NCBI GenBank assembly: GCA_020201075.1
Contig: JAIVHL010000138.1
Coordinates: 1-33,879 of the forward strand
Origin: Halomonas sp.
Lineage (GTDB): Bacteria; Pseudomonadota; Gammaproteobacteria; Pseudomonadales; Halomonadaceae
Reading direction: 5' to 3'
Length of the DNA: 33,879 nt
Position numbers and translations under genes: made by a program. Below the pieces are notes generated by a model, which had not been told where the DNA came from, did not search any database, and saw only the letters and a list, made by a program, of their open reading frames with translations. Below, piece after piece: positions 2,576 through 16,428 of this stretch. Within the stretch, counting starts at the first letter, position 1; the number at the start of each line of letters is the position of its first letter.

Positions 2576-2617
2576 ATCGATCTCCTGAAAAAAACAGCCT
2601 CGATAGTCGGGGCTGAT

Positions 2618-2719
2618 CCGGCGACAGACCTTTCGGGGGCGCTGTGAACCCCTCCCTGGGCGCTACCGATGCCATCCCTGGCATAGGACCCCCTCCAGCT
2701 CTGTCCCCGGCGCCCCTTA
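2618..2719 (-). repeat. Copy B of a ~100-nt structured intercistronic repeat
   Basis: Reverse complement (ggggcgccggggacagagctggagggggtcctatgccagggatggcatcggtagcgcccagggaggggttcacagcg...) aligns along its length with 15849..15950. Lies between the minus-strand genes allE and allA. Confidence 0.85.
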
Positions 2720-13447: not shown

Positions 13448-14563
13448 ATGGTGACCACTCACGACATCCCCCATCGCGACATTCCCGGCCATGACGCCAG
13501 CGAAGCGCTGGCAGACCGCGTCCGCCGCGCCGAGGCCGAGGGCACGCCCCTGCGCATTGTCGGCGGCGACACCAAGGCGTTTTATGGTCGCCAGGTCGTA
13601 GGCGAGACACTCTCGACCCGCGAGCACTGCGGCATCACCGAGTACGACCCGGTAGAGCTGATCGTCTCGGTACGCACCGGCACCCCGCTGAGTGAGCTGG
13701 AGTCCGCCCTGGCCGCTAATGGTCAGATGCTGCCCTGCGAGCCGCCCCACTTCGGCGAGAACGCCACGGTCGGCGGCATGATTGCCACCGGCCTCTCCGG
13801 GCCACGACGCCCCTGGGCCGGCAGCGTGCGTGACTTCGTGCTGGGCACGCGGCTCATTACCCGCCAGGGCAGCGAGCAGCGCTTCGGTGGCCAGGTAATG
13901 AAGAACGTGGCTGGCTATGACCTTTCGCGCCTGATGGTGGGGGCCCAGGGTACCCTGGGGCTGCTCACCGAGGTTTCCATGAAGGTGCTGCCGCTACCCG
14001 GCGCCAGCCGCAGCCTGCACCTGGACATGCCGCTGGCCGAAGCCCTGGAGAAACTCTCCGAGTGGGGCCGCCAACCGATGCCCATTACCGCCGCCGCCTG
14101 GCTGGAGGGCGCCCTTCACCTGCGCCTGGAGGGCGGGCCAAGCTCGGTGGCTGCCACCGCAAAGCGGCTCGGCGGCGACGAGCTCAAGGACGATTTCTGG
14201 GAGTCCCTCCGCGAACAGCGACTGGCGTTCTTCAGCGCCGAGGACTCGCGGCCATTGTGGCGTTTATCGCTGCCCAACCACACGCCGGCGCTCGAGCTGC
14301 CCGACGTCGACGAGACCGACGTGCTCTACGACTGGGCCGGCGCCCAGCGCTGGGTGCGCTGCAGACTGGATGCCAGTGCCCTGCGCGAGATTGTCGCCCG
14401 CGCCGGCGGCCACGCGACCTGCGTCCGCGGCGCCGGCGGGCAGCCGGTGGAGGAGCCCTTTACACCCCTAGCCCCGGTGGTCGAGAAATACCACCGCAAC
14501 CTCAAGGCCGAGCTTGACCCCCAGGGGATCTTCAACCCGGGCCGGCTCTACGCGGCATTCTGA
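13448..14563 (+). CDS. glcE: Glycolate oxidase FAD-binding subunit GlcE
   Basis: LRIVGGDTKAFYGR, GATVGGMIATGLSGPRRPW-like segment, and C-terminal KAELDPQGIFNPGRLY. Confidence 0.95.
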   Translation: MVTTHDIPHRDIPGHDASEALADRVRRAEAEGTPLRIVGGDTKAFYGRQVVGETLSTREHCGITEYDPVELIVSVRTGTPLSELESALAANGQMLPCEPPHFGENATVGGMIATGLSGPRRPWAGSVRDFVLGTRLITRQGSEQRFGGQVMKNVAGYDLSRLMVGAQGTLGLLTEVSMKVLPLPGASRSLHLDMPLAEALEKLSEWGRQPMPITAAAWLEGALHLRLEGGPSSVAATAKRLGGDELKDDFWESLREQRLAFFSAEDSRPLWRLSLPNHTPALELPDVDETDVLYDWAGAQRWVRCRLDASALREIVARAGGHATCVRGAGGQPVEEPFTPLAPVVEKYHRNLKAELDPQGIFNPGRLYAAF

Positions 14564-14582: not shown

Positions 14583-15827
14583 ATGCAAACGCACTTTACC
14601 GAGGAAGACCTCAAGAAGCCGCATATCCGCGAGGCCGATCGAGTGCTGCGCAGCTGCGTACACTGTGGCTTCTGCAACGCCACCTGTCCCACCTATCAGC
14701 TGCTGGGTGACGAGCGCGACGGCCCCCGTGGACGTATCTACCTGATGAAGGAGATGCTCGAGGCACCTGAGGGCAGCGACAAGGTCACCGAGGAGACCCG
14801 ACTCCACCTGGACCGCTGTTTGACCTGTCGCAACTGCGAGACCACCTGCCCCTCCGGCGTGGAGTACCACAAGCTGCTCGACATCGGCCGCGCCGAGATC
14901 GAGCGTCGAGTACCGCGCAAGCCCGCCGAACGCGCCCAGCGCTATGGCCTGCGCAAGATGTTGGTAGAACCCAAGCGCTTCCAGGCGCTGCTCAGGCTCG
15001 GCCAGACCTTCCGGCCGCTGGTACCCGGCGCCCTCCGGGACAAGCTCCCCCCGACCCCTATCGATGCCGGCAAGCGCCCGGACGGCAGCCGCCACGCCCG
15101 GCAGATGCTGATTCTCGAGGGCTGCGTGCAGCCGGGGCTTTCGCCCAACACCAACGCCGCCACCGCCCGGGTGCTGGACCGACTAGGTATCGGCCTGATC
15201 CCGGCGGCGGAGGCTGGCTGCTGCGGCGCCATCGACTTCCACCTGAACGCCCATGACGCTGGCCGCGCCCGGGCGCGAGCCAACATCGACGCCTGGTGGC
15301 CGCATATCGAGAAAGAGGGTGGGTCCGGGGTTGAAGCCATCGTGCAGACTGCCAGCGGCTGCGGCGCCTTCGTGAAGGAGTACGGTGAGATCCTCAAGAA
15401 TGACCCGGCCTACGCCGACAAGGCCGCCAGAGTGGGCGAGCTGGCCAAGGATCTGGTCGAAGTGCTCTGCGACGAGGCCGTCGACGGCCTCGAGGTAACG
15501 CAGGGCCGTCGACTTGCCTTCCATTGCCCCTGCACCCTACAGCACGCCCAGAAGCTCGGCGGCGCCGTGGAAACCGTACTGACCCGGCTCGGTTTCAGCC
15601 TCACGCCGGTGGCCGATGCCCACCTCTGCTGCGGCTCGGCGGGCACCTACGCCATCACCCAGCCCGAGCTAGCCACCCAGCTGCGCAACAACAAGCTCGA
15701 CAATCTCGAGGCCGGCAGCCCCGAAGTGATTGTAACGGCGAATATCGGTTGCCAGACCCATCTGGCCGGCGCCAACCGCACCTCCGTGCGCCACTGGATT
15801 GAAATCGTCGATGAGGCCCTCGCGTAA
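14583..15827 (+). CDS. glcF: Glycolate oxidase iron-sulfur subunit GlcF
   Basis: Two ferredoxin-type clusters (CVHCGFCNATCPTY, CLTCRNCETTCPSGVEY) and two CCG domains. Start ATG 14583. Confidence 0.96.
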   Translation: MQTHFTEEDLKKPHIREADRVLRSCVHCGFCNATCPTYQLLGDERDGPRGRIYLMKEMLEAPEGSDKVTEETRLHLDRCLTCRNCETTCPSGVEYHKLLDIGRAEIERRVPRKPAERAQRYGLRKMLVEPKRFQALLRLGQTFRPLVPGALRDKLPPTPIDAGKRPDGSRHARQMLILEGCVQPGLSPNTNAATARVLDRLGIGLIPAAEAGCCGAIDFHLNAHDAGRARARANIDAWWPHIEKEGGSGVEAIVQTASGCGAFVKEYGEILKNDPAYADKAARVGELAKDLVEVLCDEAVDGLEVTQGRRLAFHCPCTLQHAQKLGGAVETVLTRLGFSLTPVADAHLCCGSAGTYAITQPELATQLRNNKLDNLEAGSPEVIVTANIGCQTHLAGANRTSVRHWIEIVDEALA

Positions 15828-15848
15828 CACCGGCCTCGTATCCTGACG

Positions 15849-15950
15849 AGGGGCGCCGGGGGCAAGCCGGAGGGGAGGTCCTACGCCAGGGAAGGCGTCG
15901 GTAGCGTACAAGGATGTATTCACAGCGCCTCCGGAAGGCCGGCCCCGCCC
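15849..15950 (+). repeat. Copy A of the ~100-nt structured intercistronic repeat (CsrA-motif-like hairpins)
   Basis: ggggcgccgggggcaagccggaggggaggtcctacgccagggaaggcgtcggtagcgtacaaggatgtattcacagcgcctccgg... aligns to the reverse complement of 2618..2719. Confidence 0.85.
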
Positions 15951-16026
15951 AAGGGCGTGCCGCCGAAACAGCCCTGAGTCTGCTGCTTCCTGCAACAGAG
16001 TTCCATCAAATAGAGGAATACCGCTC

Positions 16027-16428
16027 ATGAAGACCAAGCCCGCACTGACCCTGACCGACGTCAACGCCATCCTCGACGCCGCCCAGCAAGAAGCCGAGGC
16101 CAACGGCTGGGGCGTGACCATCGCCGTGGCCGATGACGGCGGCCACCTGCTCGGCCTGCGCCGCATGGACAACGCGCCGCCCTTCAGCGCCGACGTGGCG
16201 TCCCAGAAGGCCCGCAACGCCGCCATCGGCCGCCGCGAGACCCAGGCCTTCGAGGACATGATCAACAACGGCCGTACCGCCTTCGTCACCGCGCCCATGC
16301 AGTCGCTGCTGGCCGGCGGCGTCCCGGTGCTGGTGGACGGTGAGGTCGCCGGCAGCGTCGGCATCTCCGGCGTCAAGCCCGACCAGGACGTCCAGGTGGC
16401 CAAGGCTGGCGTCGCCGCCGTCGGCTGA
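16027..16428 (+). CDS. glcG: GlcG/HbpS family protein
   Basis: LTLTDVNAILDAAQQEAEANGWGVTIAVADDGGHLLGLRRMDNA...GGVPVLVDGEVAGSVGISG. Last gene of the glc operon. Confidence 0.9.
   Translation: MKTKPALTLTDVNAILDAAQQEAEANGWGVTIAVADDGGHLLGLRRMDNAPPFSADVASQKARNAAIGRRETQAFEDMINNGRTAFVTAPMQSLLAGGVPVLVDGEVAGSVGISGVKPDQDVQVAKAGVAAVG

Follow-up and report, generated by a model that had tools for sequence, protein, structure and literature searches.

A palindromic repeat with two GGA hairpins between glcF and glcG

We analyzed a 33,879-nt stretch of a Halomonas sp. contig (hereafter the window), in which the gap between glcF and glcG is occupied by copy A of an imperfect palindrome enclosing two short hairpins, H1 and H2 (Table 1). 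The glcF–glcG synteny is kept in 69 of 70 relatives, and the longest glcF open reading frame begins at 14514. The first-pass annotation had located both hairpins here, in sense orientation between the two genes, and direct reading of the DNA, together with the open reading frames and Pfam matches, bears this out, as it does the match of GUACAAGGAUGU to the CsrA SELEX consensus; the window contains RTACARGGATGT a single time, where dinucleotide shuffles predict 0.01 occurrences. The limits proposed for the element, 15849–15950, need revision, with the alignment to our covariance model R1 placing them at approximately 15847–15978. Including a 16-nt insertion in its right arm (15937–15952), related forms of which are found in about six copies from the same genome, copy A measures 132 nt as against about 116 nt for the element.

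Table 1. Coordinates of the repeat copies, their parts and the neighboring genes in the window
Feature	Position	Strand	Evidence
glcF, glycolate oxidase iron-sulfur subunit (upstream gene)	14583..15827	+	Pfam CCG, Fer4 (4Fe-4S); ORF
Whole element, copy A (YPAL-type palindromic repeat, very probable)	15847..15978	+	R1 101.4 bits, model 1-116
Left arm of outer palindrome	15847..15882	+	covarying helices 1-4 of consensus
Hairpin H1, ACGCC-AGGGAA-GGCGU, loop A-N-GGA-N	15883..15898	+	direct reading; covariation
Hairpin H2, G-UAC-AAGGAU-GUA, exact CsrA SELEX consensus	15906..15918	+	direct reading; shuffles; copy comparison
Right arm of outer palindrome	15928..15978	+	cmsearch alignment; own-copy alignment
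glcG, HbpS-like protein (downstream gene)	16027..16428	+	Pfam HbpS-like; synteny
Copy B, same element	2606..2719	-	R1 115.8 bits; inverted repeat I1

In the H1 stem, the pairs 40–53 and 41–52 covary in the copy alignments, while the closing pairs are invariant. H2 is extended by a GC/GC pair (15904–15905 with 15925–15926), and its stem alternates among copies from UAC/GUA to CCC/GGG or UCC/GGA, with the loop remaining A-N-GGA-N. Copy A by itself folds no better than its shuffled versions (z = −0.02), and the structural support therefore comes from comparison among copies. A search of the window against Rfam at gathering cutoffs gave zero matches.

A dispersed family in Gammaproteobacteria

A DNA search of the same genome recovered about 28 copies of the element, a long outer palindrome of about 116 nt with internal mismatches around H1 and H2. 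Two of these lie within the window; copy B is likewise in sense orientation, between two codirectional minus-strand genes coding for a ureidoglycolate lyase and a cupin protein. The R1 model, built from Halomonad copies alone, found matches in 154 of 201 Halomonadaceae genomes from 15 of 24 genera; at most 18 candidates were scored per genome in this search, making the copy numbers minima. The named carriers are Halomonas, Billgrantia, Modicisalibacter, Salinicola, Vreelandella and Franzmannia, and 400 kb surveyed in a complete relative contained five strong and two weak copies. Among 274 genomes drawn from across Gammaproteobacteria, 37 had R1 matches. A second model, R2, built from remote copies, matched 31 of 399 phylum-wide genomes, all labeled as the same class or closer, and the viral contigs searched for the element gave no match. 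The copies analyzed below are the best-scoring ones.

Two arrangements depart from the single element. One locus (L412, G679:C1) is a tandem array of six copies in a single strand orientation at a spacing of about 228 nt, a possible many-site decoy RNA. Three copies from the Halomonas genome itself (L023, L025 and L026 on contigs C214, C232 and C52) are variants in which an extra domain of about 85 nt replaces the H1 loop; this domain contains a further hairpin whose loop is AUGGAU or AGGGAU (e.g., GGCC-AUGGAU-GGCC), giving a third A-N-GGA-N loop.

The GGA strand folds by itself

We assessed the consensus structure in three copy sets. In the alignment of copies from the same genome, 95.9% of the cells of a 35-pair structure were paired as against 88.5% in shuffled alignments, with 63 doubly changed, i.e., compensated, cells as against 18 in the shuffled ones and 2–7 when the partner was slid. 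The 32 remote copies share the fold, their arm sequences having next to nothing in common: here 95.8% of the cells were paired versus 56.3%, with 429 versus 121 doubly changed. For 34 copies aligned with R2, the majority of them independent of that model, the corresponding figures were 94.2% versus 54.8% and 472 versus 144. The two latter alignments were fitted to the model and their counts lean to the structure, a bias bounded by the slid controls, in which 37–48% of the cells were paired. Over the 171 copies taken together, the arms change freely and with compensation, and both hairpin loops remain A-N-GGA-N with a few exceptions at H1.

Among the non-Watson–Crick pairs, G·U exceeds A·C by 42:12, 23:2 and 45:12 in three counts. 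A cruciform would give no such bias, and the GGA strand therefore folds alone, as RNA or single-stranded DNA.

Two nearly invariant loops and the CsrA rule

The conservation of the GGA loops, on which the first-pass annotation depended, proved to be extreme. The H2 loop is A-N-GGA-N in 105/105 Halomonad copies and in 32/32 and 34/34 of the two remote sets, with one of the last 34 having a longer H2 loop. The H1 loop has this form in 104/105, 28/32 and 32/34 copies, respectively. Loop positions 2 and 6 tolerate several or all bases, and the two GGAs are spaced 19 nt apart in all Halomonad copies (108/108) and 19–22 nt in the others.

CsrA/RsmE recognizes an A-N-GGA-N hexaloop with variable N; in its SELEX consensus, RUACARGGAUGU, the AC pairs with the GU, mostly in stems of four or fewer base pairs, and the protein bridges sites separated by 10–63 nt, best at more than 18 nt (PMC7652899). 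The element agrees with this description at every point, in its loops, its hairpins and their spacing, and by its form its sense RNA would probably bind CsrA in vitro. The host does possess csrA (G000:C52, 94.6 bits), as the CsrA proposal presupposed, coding for a canonical protein retaining V42, H43 and R44. In the class-wide genomes, csrA fails to separate carriers (34/37) from non-carriers (201/237). It was not detected in one genome with eight copies of the element (G396, 98% complete), which may be an assembly gap.

In its A-N-GGA-N hexaloops, short stems and sites more than 18 nt apart, the element resembles both the SELEX ligands of CsrA and the CsrB, CsrC and RsmX/Y/Z sponge RNAs (PMC7652899). 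It differs from these sponges in being a dispersed two-site repeat without a conserved promoter, for which the arms appear too variable, and a predicted ligand rather than the product of one dedicated sRNA gene. The RNAs in a paper on CsrA sRNAs of Alcanivorax are unrelated to the element.

Relationship to YPAL and other repeats

The closest known relative is YPAL/RU-2, a Yersinia repeat of 167–168 bp with the same core order, which is likewise intergenic, multi-copy and palindromic; our information on it is drawn from PMC2759123 and PMC2229807. Its core comprises a closing stem GUAAAG/CUUUAC, H1 GCGCC-AAGGAU-GGCGC, CGAG and H2 GCC-UAC-AUGGAU-GUA-UUUACGGCG. The published sequence, GUAAAG-CGUCC-GCGCC-AAGGAU-GGCGC-GGCUCGAGCC-UAC-AUGGAU-GUA-UUUACGGCGU-CUUUAC, folds well (z = −4.1). 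R1 recovers a YPAL-like copy, L399, at full length from an E. coli plasmid stretch (35.3 bits; 53.9 bits with R2); this copy is 84.7% identical to YPAL over 72 nt.

The Halomonad element has the two-hairpin core within a closing palindromic stem and is multi-copy, intergenic and mobile, and we consider it very probably a YPAL-type mobile palindrome on these features of its sequence. It does not share the length of about 167 bp or the arm sequence of YPAL: it is about 116 nt long (the model length is 116), its arms are unrelated, its junction is CGGUAGCG as against CUCGAGC in YPAL, and its host range extends far beyond Yersinia and Erwinia. Because length and arm sequence differ, we label it YPAL-type and not YPAL itself. 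In the papers found, YPAL is described for Yersinia and a small number of other enterobacteria, with no reader known for it, and the open-licence papers mentioning it showed no link to CsrA. YPAL is a known miniature mobile element. PMC2229807 describes it as recently mobile, with target duplications of 3–26 bp; it also describes YPAL and ERIC as cotranscribed, with ERIC acting on mRNA stability in an orientation-dependent manner.

Rfam family RF02770 (Ysr224, Yersinia sRNA 224) matches the YPAL-type copies L399, L420 and L421 above its cutoff. It is modeled on the opposite (UCC) strand, and copy A scores a sub-threshold 11.7 bits (E 5.3) in a permissive search. By these matches, Ysr224 is itself a YPAL-type element, read from the complementary strand, and since the family matches mobile elements of this type, it is not a unique sRNA gene. 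ERIC/RU-1 (127 bp) is similarly a multi-copy, MITE-like intergenic palindrome in transcribed gaps; it has TA ends (PMC2229807), and the literature found describes no two-hairpin A-N-GGA-N core for it. The GTAG/CGTC-tagged REPs mobilized by RAYTs are also palindromic, of high copy number and near gene ends, and GUAG precedes the Halomonad H2; the element differs from them in being much longer and multi-helix, and in that several complete carriers lack a Y1 transposase.

Orientation and placement relative to genes

Using a home-made, retrained gene caller for the orientation counts, we classified 174 independent loci into 78 sense, 39 antisense, 35 convergent and 20 divergent. The expectation that copies would be non-randomly oriented is thus upheld in direction, sense being favored 78:39 (p = 4 × 10−4; 33:14 in the loci new to the analysis), and limited in degree, the bias being 2:1. 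Copies lie about 27–33 nt past stop codons, not at start codons, and divergent gaps are depleted (20 versus 35 convergent, against a background of 47 versus 25). This placement, and the cotranscription and stability effects described for YPAL and ERIC, would suit an intercistronic element for RNA stability or processing, such as an RNase target or 3′-end protector, of the kind that has been proposed for ERIC and YPAL and operating without CsrA. A stability hairpin requires no invariant loop, yet the loops are the most conserved part, and we regard this explanation as improbable.

Orthologous gaps in relatives include filled, empty and flipped sites. Between species, 36 pairs were flipped and 64 had the same orientation, with leuD–leuB and gcl–hyi among the gaps showing flips. 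Genome G267 has near-identical copies (L379–L389) in which the core runs opposite to longer outer arms, a sign of inversion via the palindromic arms.

We then compared sense and antisense orthologues whose 30-nt flanks had diverged to 53–57% identity; pairs inside a cluster are non-independent. Over both orientations, the A.GGA positions changed at 1/248 sites and the N positions at 36/124. The A.GGA changes were 0/152 in antisense versus 1/96 in sense copies, and the N changes 23/76 versus 13/48. Among the changed pairs, 40/53 were compensated and 3 broken in antisense orthologues, and 21/25 compensated and 1 broken in sense ones. Antisense copies being equally constrained, regulation of the flanking mRNA cannot be what maintains the loops, so they are maintained by something intrinsic to the element. 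Either its own propagation needs the loops, or functional copies homogenize the others through conversion or re-insertion, or the element acts in trans as RNA from either orientation.

These observations bear directly on the first proposal for copy A, a CsrA-controlled leader specific to glcG. The element is in the glcF–glcG gap of 21 of 70 relatives, in sense orientation in 21/21 species, which span several subfamilies and at least three genera; four of these copies from the same subfamily (L162, L163, L172 and L189) have cores differing almost solely at the loop N positions. Against a dedicated leader, the gap lacks the element in about 48 of 69 syntenic relatives, two of which (L164 and L167) have an apparent deletion scar, and copies also occur in the gaps between many other, unrelated genes. 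With copies following stops, antisense copies equally kept and orthologous sites flipped, we abandon the dedicated leader as very improbable.

The glcF–glcG gap has further peculiarities. In several species (L182, L189, L191, L202 and L220), the final stretch of glcF, about 100 bp, has been duplicated in tandem downstream of the gene, between one and four times. In L178, L187, L198, L203 and L212, the gap is filled with a 7-nt unit, CCGTAGC or CCGAAGC, repeated in tandem, which makes this gap a hot spot for unrelated kinds of repeats.

Mobilization or CsrA binding

The main rival to a role for CsrA is that the two loops serve to be recognized when the element itself is mobilized as a single strand, ssDNA or RNA, with the match to CsrA sites being coincidental. 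A constraint independent of the orientation to host genes, the single-stranded folding of the GGA strand and the recent mobility of YPAL all suit this explanation, as do the flips and the recurrent occupation of the same gaps, which show mobility or in-place inversion. It leaves unexplained why both loops free exactly the two positions that CsrA leaves free, as well as the SELEX-type H2 stem and the 2:1 sense bias. A mobilizing system of the IS200/RAYT type was considered and rejected: we found no Y1 (HUH) transposase in the Halomonas genome itself (G000, 85.6% complete) or in the single-contig carriers G141, G149, G157 and G167. Nor is there a clear target duplication at the Halomonad copies, with direct repeats of at least 7 nt in 3.9% of the flanks versus 1.5% of shuffled ones. 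Flanking inverted repeats of at least 8 nt are enriched (8.7% versus 1.7%), in agreement with YPAL targets near dyads. On balance, we hold recognition by a mobilizing factor to be a serious, if not the favored, possibility.

The reading we prefer, at roughly even confidence, is that of a YPAL-type mobile element whose sense RNA would be a built-in bipartite CsrA ligand. In its favor we count the folding strand, the loop rule, the spacing, the host csrA, the sense bias, the sense copies at glcF–glcG and the YPAL core; against it stand the antisense constraint, the flipped sites, Ysr224 on the UCC strand, the csrA distribution and the G396 genome. That CsrA binding is also the reason why the loops are kept is a more tentative proposition. 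Under the preferred bipartite-ligand reading, sense transcription, available to both window copies and to the roughly two-thirds of copies between codirectional genes that are in sense, would yield an RNA with two preformed sites for a single CsrA dimer. The element would then work at scattered loci as a binding site or decoy for CsrA and as an mRNA-end element, not as a switch particular to glcG.

Implications

The YPAL core is common across Gammaproteobacteria, one strand of it folds, and its two invariant loops fit the CsrA rule at bridging distance. This offers a candidate route for a mobile element to occupy a global RNA regulator. Should CsrA fail to bind, these results still indicate the loops that a mobilizing factor must read. 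More speculatively, YPAL might be one branch of a family of mobile palindromes that extends over the whole class and spreads preformed bipartite CsrA/RsmA ligands through gammaproteobacterial genomes, with transposition rewiring or buffering the Csr network; alternatively, CsrA, or a protein of the same specificity, might take part in the propagation of the element.
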